Shown here: piece by piece, positions 8,354 to 22,365 of the stretch
Numbering within the stretch: position 1 is the first letter of the stretch
Layout: every line of letters starts with the position of its first letter
Source: Phycisphaeraceae bacterium
Lineage (GTDB): Bacteria > Planctomycetota > Phycisphaerae > Phycisphaerales > Phycisphaeraceae
Direction: 5' to 3'
DNA: 38,436 nucleotides
NCBI GenBank assembly: GCA_020831765.1
Contig: JAFIFY010000181.1
Coordinates: 1-38,436, forward strand
The notes under the pieces: model-generated
Database searches by the model: none
What the model saw: the letters and a program-made list of their open reading frames with translations, nothing else
What the model was told of the DNA's origin: nothing
Program-made: the position numbers and the translations under genes

Positions 8354-9520
8354 TCATCGGCCTCGCATCGGCGGCAGGATGTCGCCTTCGATCGTGACTT
8401 GGGCCTGTTCGGATTCGCTCATGAGCATGATGCGGGGTCCGCGGCCGAATTTCTGCGTCCAGTGGCGACCCCAGCGACCGACGCCGAAACCGGAGTTACC
8501 GGTTGATGCCATGATCTTGTGATGGCCGGGGCTGTCGAACCACATCCGGAACGCCCTTTCGCCCGATATCGTGCCCATGGCGATGTTCTCCGAGGTTCCC
8601 CGCGGGTATCCGGCATTCCGCATGCGTTGGACGTGGGATCGGTTCTCCGGTGTCGGGGATGTGTGGGAGAAGTAACCCATCTCGGCCATTTCCTTGCTGT
8701 GTCGCCGCGCGGCCTGAACCAATCGCGGATCGACTTCAAAGGGCAGCAGTCCCAGATGGATGCGGTATTCATTGACCTTCTGGATGTTCTCCCACTCAGC
8801 ATCGTCAACCAAAGTGCGTTGGTGCTGGTTGAACTCATGAATCCGCCGCGCGGCGAAGTAAAAGGCCATGGTCTTGACCATCGGCTCCTCAGGTGTCCGA
8901 CCACCGACCCAGTCGCGGGCGATCGCGGCCTTTTCGGCATCCATGCCCAGAACCTGCTCGACGCGTTGCGTCAGTCGTTCGATGCGCTCGGGCGTGAAGA
9001 TCGGTTCGTTCTCGGGGCGGACCTCCTCCCAGTACTCGAGGAAGCGGGCACGCAGGGCAAAGGCTTCGATGATCAAGGCCCGGCGATGGTAGAAGGGTTG
9101 GAGGGCCTCGAAGTGCGTCTTGAGCGATTCCTGAAACTCGCGGGCCTTGCGGACGTTGTCGTCGCGTTCCAACACACGGATATTGGCCAGGGCCTCGGAT
9201 CGCACTTGATCAAAAGCGGCCTGCCGGTCCAGAAACCACTTGGGCTCGCCCGCCCGGGCAAGCTCGCGCTGTATCGACTGCTCGGTCCGGTTGACCCACG
9301 ATCGTGCCGCGCTGCGCAGGGCATCCTGTCCATCGGGCCCGGCCTTGGCCAGGGCATCCATGGCCTTGAGCGCTGCATCGGAATCCGGACCCATCGCCTG
9401 CCGGCGAAGGTTGTTCAGTTCGGCCCGGGTAAGCTCGGGGGCTTGGTCATCGGCACGAACCGCCGGCACGAAGAACGATGCAATCAGCAACATCAGGGGC
9501 AGAGTTCGAAGCGCGACCAT
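8354..9520 (-). CDS. Secreted CAP (SCP/PR-1) domain protein
   Basis: 388 residues from the ATG at 9520, chosen because GGAG lies 7 nt upstream and the N-terminus is then a clean Sec signal peptide ending near Ala23 ('VPAVRA'). Residues about 25-235 are charged and helical and not recognised. Residues about 250-370 form a CAP domain: 'VNEYRIHLGLLPFEVDPRLVQAARRHS' in pieces, 'MGYFSHTSP', 'SENIAMG', and 'MWFDSPGHHKIMAS', including the His and Glu positions typical of the CAP cavity. Bacterial CAP proteins are extracytoplasmic with varied or unknown roles. The 160 aa membrane protein gene lies 130 nt upstream on the same strand and could be co-transcribed. Confidence 0.88.
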   Translation of the reverse strand: MVALRTLPLMLLIASFFVPAVRADDQAPELTRAELNNLRRQAMGPDSDAALKAMDALAKAGPDGQDALRSAARSWVNRTEQSIQRELARAGEPKWFLDRQAAFDQVRSEALANIRVLERDDNVRKAREFQESLKTHFEALQPFYHRRALIIEAFALRARFLEYWEEVRPENEPIFTPERIERLTQRVEQVLGMDAEKAAIARDWVGGRTPEEPMVKTMAFYFAARRIHEFNQHQRTLVDDAEWENIQKVNEYRIHLGLLPFEVDPRLVQAARRHSKEMAEMGYFSHTSPTPENRSHVQRMRNAGYPRGTSENIAMGTISGERAFRMWFDSPGHHKIMASTGNSGFGVGRWGRHWTQKFGRGPRIMLMSESEQAQVTIEGDILPPMRGR

Positions 9521-9650
9521 CAAGATGCTCCATGACCAAAGGACCGAACGTATCTTAGGAGCTACCGCTCCCTGCCGATACCCATGACCAGCCGCTCGGG
9601 TTGCCCGTTGCGGCCGCGCAACACCTGATCGGCAAGTGCCGCGGGGTAAT

Positions 9651-10133
9651 TCAGCGTCCGGGCCGGGCCGGTGGCGGCGATGAGATTTCCTCACCCGGGG
9701 CGGGGTCAGGCGTGGAGGATCGGGGGTCAGAGCCCTTTACATCGAGCGCGGCCTCGAGTTGTTTGATGCGGTGCTCAGCCAGATCGAGCAATTGCTCGAG
9801 GGTTCTGGCTTTGGCATCGAGCTGGACGGCGTATCTTCGGACGAATCCTTCAACTCGGACCGTCGAATCCTCGCCCGAGGACGGAGTGGCCTGGTTCAAG
9901 CGGAACTGCGGCTCGGGACGCTGACGGGGCTGGGCGGGCGGCGGCGCGGCGGCCGCTTGCTCGCGCCGATCCTCTTCCTCATCCCGAATCGCTTCCTGAC
10001 GCCGGCGCTTGCGGATGCTTGAGAACAGCGATGCGATCAACAGCACCAGTCCCAGGGGCAGGAGCATGTCGATCCAGAAACTCGAATCACCGTTCCCGGC
10101 ATCGAGTAGGAGTGTGGAGTAGGGCGTGAGCAT
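9651..10133 (-). CDS. Small membrane protein with helical C-terminal region, unknown function
   Basis: 160 residues from the ATG at 10133, with GAGG 4 nt upstream. Short N-terminus, one membrane segment at about 22-38 ('MLLPLGLVLLIASLF'), then a strongly basic stop-transfer 'SIRKRRRQ', an acidic/Ala-Pro linker, and a helical stretch at about 100-132 ('LDAKARTLEQLLDLAEHRIK') that could be coiled coil. The tail is Pro/Ser-rich. I do not recognise a family. It diverges from tilS and precedes the CAP-domain gene. Confidence 0.6.
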   Translation of the reverse strand: MLTPYSTLLLDAGNGDSSFWIDMLLPLGLVLLIASLFSSIRKRRRQEAIRDEEEDRREQAAAAPPPAQPRQRPEPQFRLNQATPSSGEDSTVRVEGFVRRYAVQLDAKARTLEQLLDLAEHRIKQLEAALDVKGSDPRSSTPDPAPGEEISSPPPARPGR

Positions 10134-15030: not shown

Positions 15031-16062
15031 TCACCGCCGCTCAAGGAACGGCTGGATAGCCCGATAAACCGCGGTCGGCCGGCGATCGAGATCCAGCATG
15101 CCAAACCCGCCACGGTAATCCCAAACCGCCCAGCCGATGTCCAGGGAATGGAACACGGCGATGAGGTCGCTCAGCCACGCGATCCTGATGTCATCCTGAA
15201 CCGAATCCCGAACACCGAACTCGCCGCAGTAAAGGCTCAGGCCGGTTTCTTCCCGCCGCGCCAACGGTTTAATCAGGGCGTGCCGGATGGCGTCGGCATC
15301 GAAAGGCGCGTTCCATCGCTTCAGATCGACCCGCCCTTCCGGCACGGCGGCTTGAAGCCGAGCTATATCTTCCGATGCGACAGGCTGGCCGGGATAATGG
15401 ATCGGTCCATCGTAATCGCCGATCGCCGTCCAACCGGCCCGATAATGCGTGATGAGCATCGGTTCATAGAAATGAAAGCTCAGGATCAGATGGCGATCGT
15501 CGGGGATATCCAGCTCATCGAAGGTGGTTGCCGACTGGAATCGATTCGAGCCCAGGTAGACCACGCGTTCGGGCTCGTGATGACGGACGGCGGCCAGCGG
15601 CTTTCGCAGGACCCGGTTCCAGTCCGCGGCATTCCGGGCGACCGGCTCATTGAGTAGTTCATAGGCCAGTCGGTCCAACGGATGATGCTTCAGATGAGCT
15701 GACAGAACATCCCAGAGCCGTGCGAAGCGATCCGATTCCGATTCATCGGTGTACAGCGCCGGCTCGGTCGGCTGGTTGAAGTAGTGCGCACGCAGAATGT
15801 GCAGATCAACCAGAACCCGCAGTCCCGACTCGGCCGACCAGTCCAGGGCCTGATCCAGCAGATCGAACGCCTCGGGCTCCGGCCGGCCCGATTCATCGAA
15901 CATCTGAACCTCATCGATGGGCAGCCGGATGTGATCCATGCCCCATTCGGCGATCCGCCGGACATCATCGCGCGTGAAGTAACTTCGGCGTTCTTCGCCG
16001 CGCCGCTTGCTTTGGCTGAGCCAGTGCGAGATGTTCACGCCACTTCGGGCCAGAAACGACAT
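15031..16062 (-). CDS. Glycoside hydrolase family 5-like (cellulase fold), no signal peptide
   Basis: 343 residues; the ATG at 16062 has GGAGG 7 nt upstream. TIM-barrel GH5 pattern: 'GVNISHW' at strand 1, 'WGMDHIRLPID' (36-50), 'VLVDLHIL' (83-90), acid/base Glu139 in 'ELLNEP', 'HFYEP' (197-201), nucleophile Glu281 in 'YCGEFGV', and Trp in 'GWAVWDYRGG'. Family members hydrolyse beta-1,4-linked glucans or mannans. Lack of a signal peptide suggests an intracellular role on oligosaccharides, or export by another route. A SET-domain gene lies 120 nt upstream on the same strand. The closest described groups are intracellular GH5 enzymes; substrate unknown. Confidence 0.9.
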   Translation of the reverse strand: MSFLARSGVNISHWLSQSKRRGEERRSYFTRDDVRRIAEWGMDHIRLPIDEVQMFDESGRPEPEAFDLLDQALDWSAESGLRVLVDLHILRAHYFNQPTEPALYTDESESDRFARLWDVLSAHLKHHPLDRLAYELLNEPVARNAADWNRVLRKPLAAVRHHEPERVVYLGSNRFQSATTFDELDIPDDRHLILSFHFYEPMLITHYRAGWTAIGDYDGPIHYPGQPVASEDIARLQAAVPEGRVDLKRWNAPFDADAIRHALIKPLARREETGLSLYCGEFGVRDSVQDDIRIAWLSDLIAVFHSLDIGWAVWDYRGGFGMLDLDRRPTAVYRAIQPFLERR

Positions 16063-16575: not shown

Positions 16576-16842
16576 TCAGGCACTCCATTGTCTGGTCGTT
16601 CGAACTCGCGACGGTCCGGCATTCAACGTCGATCCAACCTCACCTCGTCAACCGGACCCGCGCGACCAGGTGTTGCCCAATGATGCGCGCAAATGAATCA
16701 GAAGACAAATGGACCACCGACCACAAAGCGGCAATCGCATCGAGCGGTCCACCCCATCAAATCGCTTCGGCACCGCACTTGAACCGATAAACCCCGGTCC
16801 AGGCCATCCGACACAGCACCCGGATCGACTTACAATGACTTG

Positions 16843-17769
16843 ATGGCCCGCTCCAAGCCATCCAGTTCCCATGCCCTGGCGATCGTGCTCGCCATTCTGC
16901 TGGTTGTCAGCCAGTTGCCCGCGCGATGGATCGCTCCGGTCTCGCGGCCGTTCGGCCGATTGCTTGATCTGGCTTACAGCCCGCTGACCGCGTTCCTCAC
17001 CCACGCATCCAGCCGCGTCACACGGCATCCGGACCTGCCGGTGGCGCGGGATGCGATCGAACATCTGGATGATGTCCTGCTGGAGAATCGCCGGCTTCGG
17101 CAGGAGCGTGATGAGCTGCGGCGGCGACTGGCTGAATTTGAAGGATTGCGCCAGAGATTCGGCGGCCAGTTCGCCGCGCGAAACCTTCTGAGCGCTTCGA
17201 TCACGGGTTACTCCGGCCAACGAAGCGATCCGCAACTGGTGATCAATCGCGGCACCCTTCACGGTATTTCAAAGGATGATGTGGTGATCAGCTCCAGCTA
17301 TCTGGTCGGCCGGATCGCCGAAGCCGGCCCTTCGACCAGCCGGGTCCGCCTGATCAACGCCCCGGATACGCTGCTGGAAGTCAGCATCGCGCCCCTGACG
17401 ATGGGACCGCCCCCACGCCAGACCATCGCCGCGATCCGTTCGATCGGCCGCACCGGCCGCTTCGAGGTCATCGTGCCCTATGACCGGCCGGTGCGGGTCC
17501 AGGATGCAGCCACGCTGCACTTAGGCGACCTTCGGGTCACACGAGGCATCTGGCCCGAGCACGCTCGCGGGCTGATCGTCGGCGTGGTGGTCGAGGTCGA
17601 ACCCCATGAACCCAACCCGACCATGGAACAGCGGGTCATCATTCGGCCCGTGATCGATCTGACTCGACTCACCCGCGTGGTGGTCATCACCGAAGAGCGG
17701 CTGGATGGCCCCCCGGCCCCGGCCCCGGCCCCGGCCCCGGAAGTGCCCCGGGAAGGGGGTGGGCCGTGA
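16843..17769 (+). CDS. mreC: Rod-shape-determining protein MreC
   Basis: 308 residues from the ATG at 16843 (TTG directly before it is an alternative). One membrane helix (about 10-28), a coiled coil (about 75-108, 'LENRRLRQERDELRRRLAE'), then the MreC beta domain (about 115-285): 'ASITGYSGQRSDPQLVINRGTLHGISKDDVVI', 'LVGRIAEAGPSTSRVRLI' in parts, and the later 'RGLIVGVV'. A Pro-Ala repeat tail at 287-303 is encoded by a GC-rich repeat. MreC links MreB-directed elongation to periplasmic peptidoglycan synthases. Its stop overlaps the GTG of mreD. mreB is not in the window. Confidence 0.93.
   Translation: MARSKPSSSHALAIVLAILLVVSQLPARWIAPVSRPFGRLLDLAYSPLTAFLTHASSRVTRHPDLPVARDAIEHLDDVLLENRRLRQERDELRRRLAEFEGLRQRFGGQFAARNLLSASITGYSGQRSDPQLVINRGTLHGISKDDVVISSSYLVGRIAEAGPSTSRVRLINAPDTLLEVSIAPLTMGPPPRQTIAAIRSIGRTGRFEVIVPYDRPVRVQDAATLHLGDLRVTRGIWPEHARGLIVGVVVEVEPHEPNPTMEQRVIIRPVIDLTRLTRVVVITEERLDGPPAPAPAPAPEVPREGGGP
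17710..17757. repeat. Dispersed CCCCGGAAGT motif, copy 3 (mreC 3' end)
   Basis: Tandem GGCCCC hexamers followed by CCCCGGAAGTGCCCCGG. In frame it encodes the alternating Pro-Ala tail of MreC. Confidence 0.55.
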
Positions 17770-18368
17770 ACTGGTTCATCTTCATTCTGTTCGCCTACGT
17801 GTTCACCGTCCTCGAAGTCGGGCTGGAAACCCTGATCAGTCCCCGTGTCGACTGGCTCCGCGAAACCTCGCCACAGTTCCTGATCATTCTGCTGGTGTTC
17901 ATCGGCCTCAATGCCCCGTTCCGAACGGCGCTGTGGGCGGGCCTGGCCCTGGGCCTGATCGCGGACCTGATCGCCCCGGTCACGGTGGACCTTGGCGACG
18001 ATATGACGCTGCTGACCTACCTGCCCGGACCGCGCACGCTCGGCTACGTCGGCGCGGTTTACTTTGTCCTGCAATTGCGCGGCGTGGTCTACCGAATGTC
18101 GCCCCTGGCGACCGGCGCGGCGACGTTCTCAGCCTGCATCGCGATGAGTCTTATCTCCATCGCCCTCTGGGCGATGCGCGGCCTGCCCTTCACCCCCGGG
18201 GAGCCGCGCCAGGGCTGGATGCCCTCCGATGCGCTGGCTGTGGGCTTCCTCGATGCCGTTTACACCATGCTGGCCGCTATGCTCATTCATGGACTCTTTC
18301 AACTGGCTCGGCCCCTGTGGCAGTTCCAGACCCCCGCCGGCCCCGGTCGGCGTGTTCACAAAGCTTGA
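17766..18368 (+). CDS. mreD: Rod-shape-determining protein MreD
   Basis: 200 residues from a GTG whose last bases overlap the mreC stop (GTGA overlap). Five to six hydrophobic helices, with the MreD-like 'LFLIGL'-type core seen as 'LLVFIGLNAPFRTALWAGLALGLIADL' in two helices and a conserved 'GLIADL'. Slightly longer than the typical 160-180 residues. It works with MreC in the elongation complex in the inner membrane. Identification relies mainly on gene order plus topology, since the family is poorly conserved. Confidence 0.82.
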   Translation: MNWFIFILFAYVFTVLEVGLETLISPRVDWLRETSPQFLIILLVFIGLNAPFRTALWAGLALGLIADLIAPVTVDLGDDMTLLTYLPGPRTLGYVGAVYFVLQLRGVVYRMSPLATGAATFSACIAMSLISIALWAMRGLPFTPGEPRQGWMPSDALAVGFLDAVYTMLAAMLIHGLFQLARPLWQFQTPAGPGRRVHKA

Positions 18369-18372
18369 TGGC

Positions 18373-18735
18373 ATGACCGATCGCGATCACACCGACTCCG
18401 AACCCAACGAATCCCAAGACCAGGGCGATCAACCCCCCAAAGCTTCGGTCGACCCGCCAGGCGTTGAGAAGTCCGATGCGTTCGGCTATCCGCGCCCGAC
18501 CTCGGATCGAATCTGGCCCACCGGCGAGGCGCCCGTGACATGGCAACCGGCCAGAGGTCCGGTCGCCCGCCTCCTGGCCGCGCTGGTCCTCCTGATGATG
18601 CTGGCCGGCATCGCGATTATGATCCACTGGAGTATCATGATGTTTCGCGGCGAAACGGTCGATTTCCTCGACCGGCTCTTCCCCGCCGTCGGCGAGGTCG
18701 AGGACGAAGCAATCCAGGACGAGCCGGAGCCGTAA
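18373..18735 (+). CDS. Small single-pass membrane protein in the mreCD-exbBD operon
   Basis: 120 residues from the ATG at 18373, 4 nt after the mreD stop. An acidic, Pro-rich cytoplasmic-like N-terminus (1-62), one membrane helix (about 66-90, 'LLAALVLLMMLAGIAIMIHW'), and an acidic tail ending 'EDEAIQDEPEP'. No family recognised. Close packing with mreD argues for a role with the membrane complexes encoded around it. Confidence 0.68.
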   Translation: MTDRDHTDSEPNESQDQGDQPPKASVDPPGVEKSDAFGYPRPTSDRIWPTGEAPVTWQPARGPVARLLAALVLLMMLAGIAIMIHWSIMMFRGETVDFLDRLFPAVGEVEDEAIQDEPEP

Positions 18736-18804: not shown

Positions 18805-19638
18805 ATGCGCATGAGTTGGAATGGTGTGGGCCTGGCGATCGGCATTGGCGCGGCGGTGGTGTTGACCGCCGGCGGCCCCGCATGGGCTGAATCCTCGCTC
18901 GAAGGTCTGGGCCGGATGCGCGCCCGGTTCGATCAGGGCGGATTCACCATGTATCTGCTCCTGATGCTTTCGGTGGTGGGACTGGCTTTCACCCTCGAAC
19001 GGCTCTTTCACCTGCGCCAGGCATTCATCGTTCCTGAAGGGCTTATCGAACAGTACATGGAACTTTGGCAGCGCGGCCAGTGGAAGACACTGGATGAGCT
19101 CTGCCTGGCACGGCCGTGTTCGCTCAGCCGCATGGTGCGATTCATGCTCCGCCACCGCATGGCCCCGGCCGAGCGACTTTCCCAGGCGCTCTCGGACATG
19201 GGTTGGCGGGAGATGCGGCCCCATCTGCGCCGCCTGCATCCCCTGGCCCTGGTCGCGACCGTCGCCCCCCTGCTGGGCCTGTTTGGCACGGTCGTCGGCA
19301 TGATCGAGGCCTTCGAGCAGTTCCGAGTCTACGGCGAGACCGGCAACCCGGCGGACTTCGCCGGCGCGATCTCCAAGGCCCTGATCACCACCGCCTTCGG
19401 CCTGGCGATCGCCCTGCCCGCCCTGGCGTTCCATCAGTTCTTCAAGAGCCTGGCCCAGAAATACGGTGACCGCCTTGAAAGCGAGGTCGGCAGGCTGTTC
19501 GAGACGTACTTCCTGCTGATCCCCGATGAACGAGCCAGCCGGGCCACGACGCGCCCGGCGATCGAGACCGACGTCATGGCCGAGGAGGCTGAGAACCCTC
19601 GAAACAGCCCGGAGCGCGGCGATGCGTTTTCACCGTGA
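18805..19638 (+). CDS. ExbB/TolQ/MotA-type proton channel protein
   Basis: 277 residues. The N-terminus looks like a signal peptide ('AIGIGAAVVLTAGGPAWA', cleavage near residue 28), common in ExbB of planctomycetes and Bacteroidetes. Three membrane helices follow: about 47-66, 147-170 ('VATVAPLLGLFGTVVGMIEAF', the signature helix) and 187-212 ('ISKALITTAFGLAIALPALAFHQFF'). The conserved Thr pair of the family is visible in the last two. It forms with ExbD a channel that converts proton motive force into motion of a TonB-like partner. exbD overlaps its end by 17 nt. Confidence 0.93.
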   Translation: MRMSWNGVGLAIGIGAAVVLTAGGPAWAESSLEGLGRMRARFDQGGFTMYLLLMLSVVGLAFTLERLFHLRQAFIVPEGLIEQYMELWQRGQWKTLDELCLARPCSLSRMVRFMLRHRMAPAERLSQALSDMGWREMRPHLRRLHPLALVATVAPLLGLFGTVVGMIEAFEQFRVYGETGNPADFAGAISKALITTAFGLAIALPALAFHQFFKSLAQKYGDRLESEVGRLFETYFLLIPDERASRATTRPAIETDVMAEEAENPRNSPERGDAFSP

Positions 19639-20026
19639 AAGCGAAGATGATTCTCCGGCCGTGCAGATGACGCCGATGATCGACTGCGTCTTTCTGCTGT
19701 TGATTTTCTTCATTGTGACCGCGAGCATCGAGCCGCCGTCGCCACAACTGGACCTCGACCTGCCGGTGATCGAACTGGCCGAGCCCGCACCCCGGATTCC
19801 GGGACAGGTTCATATTTCCATCGACAGCCAGGGCCAGTTCCATCTCGATTCGGGCCCGGTCAACCGGCAGCAGCTTCGCCAATTCCTCGAAGTGTTGTCT
19901 CGAGATGACCCCGCGCCAAGAATTCGATTGAACATCGATCAGCAGGCGCCCTCCCGCTACTTCCTGGAGGTCACCAATATGCTGACGATCCATGGCCTTC
20001 GGCAGGTTTCGTTCGGCGGAAAGTAG
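19622..20026 (+). CDS. ExbD/TolR-type protein
   Basis: 134 residues from the ATG at 19622, inside the end of exbB (coupled translation). A cytoplasmic N-terminus, then 'QMTPMIDCVFLLLIFFIVTA' with the essential proton-carrying Asp21 at the start of the helix, then a periplasmic domain with 'VHISIDSQGQFHLDSGPVN' in parts, as in ExbD/TolR. It ends 'HGLRQVSFGGK', typical of the last strand. It pairs with the preceding ExbB. Only one ExbD is present; some planctomycete clusters carry two. Confidence 0.93.
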   Translation: MRFHRESEDDSPAVQMTPMIDCVFLLLIFFIVTASIEPPSPQLDLDLPVIELAEPAPRIPGQVHISIDSQGQFHLDSGPVNRQQLRQFLEVLSRDDPAPRIRLNIDQQAPSRYFLEVTNMLTIHGLRQVSFGGK

Positions 20027-20044: not shown

Positions 20045-21502
20045 ATGTTCGCCCGTCTGAAGAAGTATTCGCTGACCTGGTGGGTGGTGTCCCTGGCGCT
20101 GCATGCCGCCGTGGTCGGAGCGATCGCCGGATCGCCAAAGCTCCAGGCCTGGCTCAATCCGTTCGAACGGTCCACGCCGCAGATCGACCCCGCGCCCGAA
20201 CGCGTCGAGGCGATGATCGAACTCACCCGGCAGCGGATGGTTCAACGGCTGGATCAGAGCCTCGGTTCGATGCGGATGGGCCTGGCGTGGATGGAAGAAA
20301 CCGAAGAGCAGCACCGAGGCCGCGTGGCGGCGCGGCAGCCGGAGGTGCTGGACTTGAGCATCGCTTCGCTTCGTGAAATTCAGGATCGCCCCCCGGCGGT
20401 CGGGAGCGGCGCGGTGGAAAACGGAATCGAAGAAGACGATCCACAAAGAGAAGCGCCGCGCCTCGAGCCCGGCTCGACGGAGCAGCGGCTGGTTCAGCTC
20501 TACGAGGAACTGCTCGATCACGAACGGAAGATCAACCAGGCTTACGAAAGGCTGAAGATCAGCGCCCTGGCGGCTCGGCGCGGGGTCAATCTCTCGACGA
20601 TCTGGGAAAGCAATCGACTGATCTTCCCGGAACGCGAGAAGCTGGACTACGAAACGATGACGATGCCCATCGACCGGCTTGATGATGGTCGATTCGATCG
20701 TTTCCGCGATGAGACCGCACGATTGCGCCGCCAGATTCTGACCGTCGGCGAGCGGATGTCGAATTTGACGCGGCTGGCGCGCGAGCTGGCGACGCGGGAC
20801 GATGATTTCGAGCTTTTCGGCTGGCATCCGGAAGAGTCCGGCCTGACGCCGGTCGGCCGCGCCCTGGCCACCGAAGAAGTTCAGGCCGGCGGCGATATCG
20901 ACCTGGACTGGATTCGCGACAGCCCGGGCGATGCCTATGTGCCCAGTGGACTGGTTCGACAAGGTACACGGCTGGGCCACCCCGATGATGCCGAATCCGT
21001 GGAGTGGATGATCGTGGATGCATGGTATGTGGTCGGGCCTTTTGAGCACCCCGGACGGTCACGACAGGACCTGGACCGGCCATATGCGCCCGAATCGATC
21101 ATCGATCTGGATCAGGAATTCATCGGCAAGGACGGGCAGACCGTTCGCTGGCGCTTCACCCAACTCGGGCGGCACAACCAGCGGCCCCAGATGATGGTCA
21201 CCCCGCCCGGCCGGATTGAATCCTGGGCGGTCTGGTACGCCTATACCGAGATTTATTCACCCACCGATCAGACCGTCCTCATGGCCTTCGGCAGCGATGA
21301 CTATGGCATCTGCTGGGTCAACGATCAGGTGGTCTGGAAAAGCAATGTCGCCGTCCGAGCCTGGACGCCGTTCGGCCCCGATGCGTTTGCCAGCGTCAAT
21401 CTCCACCGGGGCATCAATCGCGTTCTGTTCAAGCTGGAAAATGCAGGCGGGCTTACCGGGTTTTCGATGCTGATCTACACGCGGCCGGTGGGTAGACCTT
21501 AG
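20045..21502 (+). CDS. TonB-position protein: TonB-like Ser16/His20 helix, helical stalk, PA14/jelly-roll-like C-terminal domain
   Basis: 485 residues; GGAG lies upstream of the ATG at 20045, 18 nt after exbD. One N-terminal membrane helix (about 12-28, 'WWVVSLALHAAVVGAIAG') has Ser16 and His20, the same residues, spacing and numbering as the essential pair in E. coli TonB. Residues 50-290 are charged and helix-rich, probably coiled coil. Residues about 320-482 match the planctomycete 'WYVVGPF ... LMAFGSDDYGICWVNDQVV ... LHRGINRVLFKLENAGGLTGFSM' sandwich domain, related in pattern to PA14/galactose-binding modules. The usual TonB C-terminal domain is absent. I infer an ExbBD-energised periplasmic protein that grips a carbohydrate or wall component rather than a TonB-dependent receptor. 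Confidence 0.82.
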   Translation: MFARLKKYSLTWWVVSLALHAAVVGAIAGSPKLQAWLNPFERSTPQIDPAPERVEAMIELTRQRMVQRLDQSLGSMRMGLAWMEETEEQHRGRVAARQPEVLDLSIASLREIQDRPPAVGSGAVENGIEEDDPQREAPRLEPGSTEQRLVQLYEELLDHERKINQAYERLKISALAARRGVNLSTIWESNRLIFPEREKLDYETMTMPIDRLDDGRFDRFRDETARLRRQILTVGERMSNLTRLARELATRDDDFELFGWHPEESGLTPVGRALATEEVQAGGDIDLDWIRDSPGDAYVPSGLVRQGTRLGHPDDAESVEWMIVDAWYVVGPFEHPGRSRQDLDRPYAPESIIDLDQEFIGKDGQTVRWRFTQLGRHNQRPQMMVTPPGRIESWAVWYAYTEIYSPTDQTVLMAFGSDDYGICWVNDQVVWKSNVAVRAWTPFGPDAFASVNLHRGINRVLFKLENAGGLTGFSMLIYTRPVGRP

Positions 21503-21543: not shown

Positions 21544-22221
21544 TCATCCATCGTCCGAACCCACCACGATCCTGACGGCCTCGAGCACGGCGTTGGGCTC
21601 CAATCGCTTGCGGTAGTCCGCTTCCCAATGCGCAAAGCGAACCTCGCCGGACCGATCAATCACATAGACCGCCGGAACCGGCAGCATGCGATGCCGGCGC
21701 TCAGAGGCGGCCTGGATGTCGATGCCGTAATCCTGGAGCATCGTCATCGTCGGATCATCAACGCGGAAGGCCACCCCGAAGCCCTGCGAAAGCCACATGT
21801 CCTGATCCGAGACGATCCGATAGGCAAAAGCGTGTTCGCCCTTCCCGGCCCGGATCGTTGCCGGTGAATCCGGGCTGACGGCCAGAACCGTCACGCCCAG
21901 CTCCTCCAATGCCTCGTCGATATCAGCCATCGCCGCAAGATGCTCGGTGCAGTACGGGCACCATCCTCCACGGTAAAAGATCAGAACGACCGGACCCTCG
22001 CGATAGAGCGCGCCCAGATCAACCTCGCGGTCTTCCCCATCACGAACAGGCAGCAGCGGTGCTCGATCACCGACGCCCAGCGGCTTGACCTCGGCCGCGC
22101 TTTCCGGAACGGGGCCGAAATCGACCGACGTCGGCGAGTGTCGATGCACACCGGCACAAGCCTGCATGGCCAGGCCCACCATCAGCAAGGTCAACGGGAA
22201 CAGGAGACGATTCAGGTTCAT
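21544..22221 (-). CDS. AhpC/TSA-family thioredoxin-fold lipoprotein (peroxiredoxin-like)
   Basis: 225 residues from the ATG at 22221, with GGAG 8 nt upstream. Signal peptide with lipobox-like 'MQAC' (Cys22) predicts lipidation. The redoxin domain (about 45-220) has 'GDRAPLLPV', 'VVLIFYRGGWCPYC' with Cys88 and Cys91, 'VTVLAVSPDSPATI', and 'PVPAVYVIDRSGEVRFAHWEADYRKR'. The CPYC site places it near the PRX-like-2/BCP branch of AhpC/TSA proteins that reduce peroxides. Being lipid-anchored, it adds to the envelope oxidative defence seen with MsrAB. dapF lies directly upstream on the same strand. Confidence 0.88.
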   Translation of the reverse strand: MNLNRLLFPLTLLMVGLAMQACAGVHRHSPTSVDFGPVPESAAEVKPLGVGDRAPLLPVRDGEDREVDLGALYREGPVVLIFYRGGWCPYCTEHLAAMADIDEALEELGVTVLAVSPDSPATIRAGKGEHAFAYRIVSDQDMWLSQGFGVAFRVDDPTMTMLQDYGIDIQAASERRHRMLPVPAVYVIDRSGEVRFAHWEADYRKRLEPNAVLEAVRIVVGSDDG

Positions 22222-22365
22222 GGCGACAACTCCAGCGCGGACGCGGGAAATCTCGGCCATCAGCCACACGGATGAGCTTTCGATCGTCCCCGATGGGGAC
22301 ACGCATCGCAAAAGTGTACGGTTCGGCCCGATCATTGGTGCGGCAATCCTTTTTCAGAGCGCGGC

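Follow-up and report, generated by a model that had tools for sequence, protein, structure and literature searches.

A candidate TonB/TolA-like force transducer with a predicted jelly-roll tip, encoded next to exbB and exbD in a Phycisphaeraceae bacterium

The 485-aa protein encoded at positions 20045–21502 of the window (the whole stretch of DNA that was analysed, 38,436 nucleotides long, contig C24 of the 98.4% complete genome G000) is a candidate force transducer of the TonB/TolA-like type, and its relatives, spread over many Planctomycetota and Verrucomicrobiota and over phyla close to these, indicate a genuine kind of force transmitter that seems not to have been described before. We consider it likely that the protein is the third component of a proton motor of its own, of the ExbB5-ExbD2 type, in which TonB/TolA-like docking would connect the motor through a stalk to a jelly-roll tip that grips a target in the envelope. 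The sequence basis for this reading is the linkage of the genes, the residues of the motor, the conservation of a Ser/His pair and its co-variation with ExbB. The features of the locus are as follows:

16840–17769, plus strand: mreC (PF04085, 5e-21, a clear match)
17766–18368, plus strand: mreD (weak Pfam match, 1.5e-4)
18373–18735, plus strand: small ORF with one helix, matching no family
18805–19638, plus strand: exbB, 277 aa, MotA/TolQ/ExbB motor subunit (PF01618, 4.1e-26)
18970–18972, plus strand: ExbB Ser56, which aligns with Ser34 of E. coli ExbB
19622–20026, plus strand: exbD, 134 aa, with its stop codon at 20024–20026 (PF02472, 2.2e-24)
19682–19684, plus strand: ExbD Asp21, proton-carrying
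20045–21502, plus strand: candidate TonB/TolA-like force transducer, 485 aa
20078–20131, plus strand: membrane helix, about residues 12–29 (sequence, family alignment and a motif-independent hydrophobic-window check)
20090–20092, plus strand: Ser16 of the 485-aa protein
20102–20104, plus strand: His20 of the 485-aa protein
20195–20794, plus strand: predicted helical stalk (AlphaFold2 model and alignment)
20954–21484, plus strand: predicted C-terminal jelly-roll domain, residues 304–480 (AlphaFold2 domain model, fold comparison and invariant columns)

Within the window, the region is flanked by genes for a GH5 cellulase-family protein (15031–16062, minus strand) and a peroxiredoxin-like (AhpC/TSA) protein (21544–22335, minus strand). 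The transducer ORF starts 18 nt after the exbD stop codon, and the only membrane helix of its product lies at the N-terminus and carries an S-x3-H motif, Ser16/His20, an arrangement pointed out in an earlier sequence-only reading of this DNA and confirmed in the sequence. That reading had also drawn attention to the identical numbering of the two residues in TonB, which is a coincidence, as the position of the motif varies widely along the N-terminus of the relatives. Its statement that the TonB C-terminal domain and proline-rich spacer are lacking stands, since comparison of the protein with Pfam, NCBIfam and PDB sequences gave nothing significant (TonB_C included), with only chance or coiled-coil matches, and residues 30–300 contain only 17 prolines. 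In the AlphaFold2 model of the full protein, stalk helices are predicted at residues 51–113, 145–179 and 216–250, and in the alignment residues 145–250 form a helical segment that is conserved across the family. The ExbB of the window retains the pore threonines and the TM3 proline, as judged by residue alignment.

A search of 60 relatives returned a single full-length orthologue, in G033 (35% identity, on the same contig as locus L092), together with many matches to the C-terminal part alone. Among the best loci, nine whose surroundings were inspected have the domain protein adjoining exbB and exbD (at L037, exbD alone at the end of a contig), and one of these is a second copy in the genome of the window itself. 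A diverse alignment (A1) contained no conserved stretch, and a closer subset (A2) was used instead for a profile scan of the genome contigs, which yielded 60 loci, 42 of them holding a high-scoring form. The hosts of this form are Planctomycetota, Verrucomicrobiota, Kiritimatiellota, Lentisphaerota and KSB1 MAGs, together with one MAG labelled Blastochloris, and among the Planctomycetota samples the distribution is patchy (11/392 genomes at E<=1e-35). Essentially all high-scoring loci with enough upstream DNA lie downstream of exbB-exbD; two orphan copies, L074 and L152, have no adjoining exbBD, yet keep S-x3-H. All-against-all comparison of the neighbouring genes identified only exbB, exbD and the transducer as widely common to the loci, with no common carbohydrate-pathway gene or other partner. 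The low-scoring matches (at most 106 bits) fall in proteins of other kinds. Four of them were tested, and three proved to belong to DUF2961 (PF11175), which has been assigned to GH172 (PMC10115798, PMC8605356). Away from exbBD operons, the sequences most closely related to the tip (L094, L095 and L098, from Archaeoglobus, Calditrichota and Bacteroidetes MAGs) are located C-terminal to DUF2961 domains.

The S-x3-H motif is kept in 49 of the 60 family members of known status, a count to which divergent members were added because the A2 scan favours consensus-like ones. For comparison, the background frequency in other hydrophobic N-terminal segments of the same loci is 4.6%, and nearly all of these background occurrences are in split stalk genes of the same transducer family. 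Its retention in the G033 orthologue and in most relatives bears out the expectation that the Ser/His pair is conserved. In the motif-independent window check, the hydrophobic segment directly after exbD contains S-x3-H in nearly all A2-scan loci. Alignment of the helix, with rows chosen by the motif, gave Ser in 41/42 and His in 42/42 sequences, and the motif-anchored columns commonly have Trp at −8, Pro at +12 and a basic N-side. The Leu and Ser positions of the SHLS pattern (+7 and +11 from the His) are mostly Leu/Ile and Thr in the family; the window protein, with Ile27 at +7 and Pro31 at +11, matches this second half imperfectly. Such docking cannot apply to the whole family, because the motif is absent in 11/60, among them the second copy in the window genome (L032), whose ExbB has also lost the Ser34 equivalent, and most two-exbD operons. 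Most of the latter lack both S-x3-H and ExbB Ser34 (L147, L148, L149, L150, L161, L163 and L164), while two of them, L038 and L039, keep both S-x3-H and the Ser34 equivalent.

These residues were compared in an alignment of 49 family ExbBs with E. coli ExbB. In the E. coli sequence, positions 34, 38 and 190 fit the numbering of the cryo-EM structure of the E. coli Ton complex, in which Ser16 and His20 of TonB touch Ser34 and Trp38 of ExbB, and Trp38 in turn touches Pro190 (PMC12215075). The equivalent of ExbB Ser34 is Ser in all 39 of the 39 operons with an S-x3-H transducer and is another residue in 9/10 operons without one, the sole exception being L089, where the transducer still has the His. 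The co-occurrence is significant by Fisher's test (5e-9), which ignores relatedness, and on the ExbB tree five changes are needed at position 34, at least four of which are forced by well-supported branches. Elsewhere in the window genome, further ExbBs, the one in a vWA system among them, also have Ser at this position, and thus Ser34 is probably ancestral and was lost jointly with the docking pair. We regard this co-variation as the strongest evidence for the putative docking, which is well supported at the level of sequence. The family does not conserve ExbB Trp38, and its network of contacts would therefore match that of E. coli only in part. The proton-path residues of the motor are kept in nearly all cases: the ExbD Asp motif is present in 64/65 ExbDs compared, and the equivalents of ExbB Thr148, Thr181 and Pro190 in 48/49, 46/49 and 44/49 ExbBs, respectively. 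Together, linkage, S-x3-H and co-variation with ExbB uphold the suggestion of the sequence-only reading that the protein is a transducer of a proton-motive-force motor, with a TonB/TolA-type docking helix and a different tip.

Several lineages encode the protein in two genes, the first for the stalk, with the S-x3-H helix and a coiled coil, and the second for the tip; the tip gene begins like a signal peptide and continues with the conserved helical segment and the C-terminal domain. At L073 (4004–9425), a split stalk/tip pair is followed in tandem by a fused paralogue within one operon; residues 1–319 of the fusion match the stalk gene (65% identity) and residues 260–857 the tip gene (59% identity). 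The split genes, and this fused paralogue matching both, indicate that split stalk and tip probably act as one unit. We infer from the signal-peptide-like starts of the split tip genes that the tip is probably periplasmic. At the second locus of the window genome (L032, G000:C113:11000-30000), the transducer gene (8573–9961, minus strand) lies downstream of exbB-exbD, and upstream of exbB are two large secreted-looking proteins (992 and 1039 aa) with no Pfam match, a group that blastp connects with ORFs in the vicinity of the system at L089 and L093.

The tip domain (~170 aa) has no counterpart in Pfam or NCBIfam; vWA (Pfam) is matched neither by the window protein nor by 38 aligned members, and PA14 (PF07691, Pfam) by none of the 38. 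AlphaFold2 confidently predicts the C-terminal domain as an all-beta jelly roll (pLDDT 88 and pTM 0.85 for the domain alone). In the PDB fold comparison, the best VIA-align matches are the N-terminal jelly rolls of GH2 beta-glucuronidases (Z 11.0, rmsd 3.2–3.3 Å over 137–140 residues), and the top Foldseek rows contain CBM35, the PA14 lectin domain of MpAFP and the yeast flocculin/Epa (Flo/Epa) lectins, with modest TM-scores for MpAFP PA14 and Flo/Epa. In place of the 'PA14-like' label given to the tip by the sequence-only reading, a broader term is preferable: PA14/Flo domains are among the top Foldseek matches along with CBM35, but VIA-align places the GH2 N-terminal domain first. Many jelly rolls of sugar enzymes rank almost level and the differences in Z are small, so that 'galactose-binding-like jelly roll' is the safe label and no single fold is put forward as the closest. 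Asp418-Asp419 are invariant in the family alignment and may be comparable to the Asp pair of PA14 lectins; similarly, the SDD...W(V/I)N core of the tip presumably resembles the PA14 'DD' core. The likeness of the predicted fold to the jelly rolls of GH2 N-termini, CBM35 and PA14 makes a glycan a plausible ligand, although a fold by itself does not establish one. In contrast to these jelly rolls, the window tip has no Pfam match and is carried by a motor-linked membrane protein, rather than by an enzyme or adhesin.

In the mechanism that we favour, the N-terminal helix would dock on the outside of ExbB, with Ser16 and His20 placed against the Ser34 equivalent as in TonB/TolA, and the helical stalk would transmit motion into or across the periplasm. 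There, the galactose-binding-like (PA14/CBM/GH2-N-like) tip, taking the place of the TonB/TolA tip, would grip its target. The likeliest targets are glycans (the peptidoglycan, LPS or some other polysaccharide of the envelope) and proteins that carry glycans or sit in the outer membrane. In this scheme the fold and the periplasmic location are predictions, and the stoichiometry of the motor, the generation of force, the ligand and the cellular role are inferred. Possibly, however, the tip binds a protein (an outer-membrane protein or lipoprotein) and not a glycan, so that the system would form a link of the TolA/Pal or Ton type through another adaptor, a reading to which we attach some weight. 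Jelly-roll and galactose-binding-like domains also serve protein binding, and no carbohydrate-pathway gene is shared by the loci. The tips of TolA and TonB, moreover, bind their targets by beta-strand addition (PMC12204202). On the other hand, the closest folds and the nearest sequence relatives of the tip are sugar-active enzymes and lectins, and no partner gene is conserved nearby.

A passive role, in which the protein would regulate or help to assemble ExbBD from the periplasm, sensing glycan in the envelope and gating the flow of protons instead of pulling as an arm, seems to us unlikely. Strong pulling is less obvious where the tip is a separate secreted protein, as in several lineages, and some members without the docking residues remain in the operon, but S-x3-H is retained in the split stalk genes and the pore residues of the motor are intact. 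Control of cell shape through mreCD, as the sequence-only reading had proposed from the position of mreC and mreD upstream on the same strand, is very improbable: mreC adjoins the system in the window only, and in seven other system-bearing genomes where mreC was found it lies elsewhere, sharing a contig with the system only in G026, at a distance of ~15 kb. We therefore regard mreCD as a local, non-conserved neighbour and reject it as a functional partner, the linkage not being conserved. That the protein is an unusual TonB serving TonB-dependent receptors is scarcely credible, the operon position and S-x3-H helix notwithstanding, as TonB_C (PF03544), TonB_2 and Plug (PF07715) are absent from the 98%-complete window genome and from five other carriers, and three carriers that do have Plug proteins have TonB_C proteins of their own.

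The proton-motor reading is thus not one of a hidden Ton system, because the window genome has no detectable TonB_C or receptor plug. Consistent with the sequence-only reading, which expected no linked TonB, a profile built from the TonB_C domains of six relatives found no TonB gene near the exbBD operons. The window genome contains six genes of the MotA/ExbB family: the window exbB and its paralogue, one in a MotAB-like pair, one that stands alone, one in an exbB-exbD-exbD locus and one in a vWA-transducer locus. The vWA-transducer locus (L145, G000:C30, 1372–7147, minus strand) has the order exbB-exbD-TPR-(S-x3-H helix + vWA) and matches the published vWA transducer class. At the exbB-exbD-exbD locus (L143, G000:C98, 6453–8390), a 1102-aa ORF without a Pfam match follows, and no S-x3-H helix was seen nearby. 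Elsewhere, adjoining a family member, L083:2018-5196 encodes exbB-exbD-exbD-(S-x3-H helix + Pfam PA14, 4.5e-6), a further type of SHLS transducer whose tip is PA14.

A class of SHLS transducers ending in vWA has been described and further kinds foreseen (Williams-Jones et al. 2025, PMC12204202). By its sequence features, the window system is a candidate SHLS-type transducer in the broad sense, having a linked motor with intact proton-path residues and a Ser-His pair matched to its contact residue. It shares with the vWA class the ExbB/TolQ and ExbD/TolR neighbours, the N-terminal S-x3-H helix, a non-TonB tip and an occurrence in Planctomycetota and Verrucomicrobiota, and the window genome itself holds a locus of the vWA class. 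The vWA class, however, has a vWA tip, a proline-rich or disordered linker and a TPR gene nearby (PMC12204202), whereas in the window family a helical stalk bears a predicted jelly roll, and the loci have no TPR gene family in common. TolA is similar in the S-x3-H helix and, in gamma-proteobacteria, in the helical stalk (domain II), but the window protein has no TolA/TonB-type tip recognised in Pfam or NCBIfam, and no TolB/Pal neighbour is recognised, the loci having no common neighbour beyond exbB/exbD. With TonB, the system has in common the exbB-exbD linkage and the Ser/His docking pair, but not TonB_C, the proline-rich spacer or, in the window genome, the plug of a TonB-dependent receptor. 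No earlier description of the jelly-roll tip family was found in the searchable literature, which leaves out most subscription papers and all preprints. The kind of transducer is thus already known, and the predicted jelly-roll tip on its helical stalk appears to be what is new within it.

More tentatively, we suggest that the family constitutes a third class of proton-driven envelope transducer beside TonB/TolA and vWA, in which a lectin-like tip would grip and work on envelope polysaccharide and would sometimes be secreted as a separable subunit, with a stalk on the motor to hold it. The contact between Ser/His and ExbB Ser34 observed by cryo-EM gains evolutionary support from outside Proteobacteria, and in several phyla a TonB/TolA-type docking helix appears joined to a tip of quite another kind. 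Split and fused forms occurring in nature offer ready-made tools for studying how such motors transmit force, and where PVC bacteria have no detectable TonB, the system is a candidate source of energy for the outer envelope.
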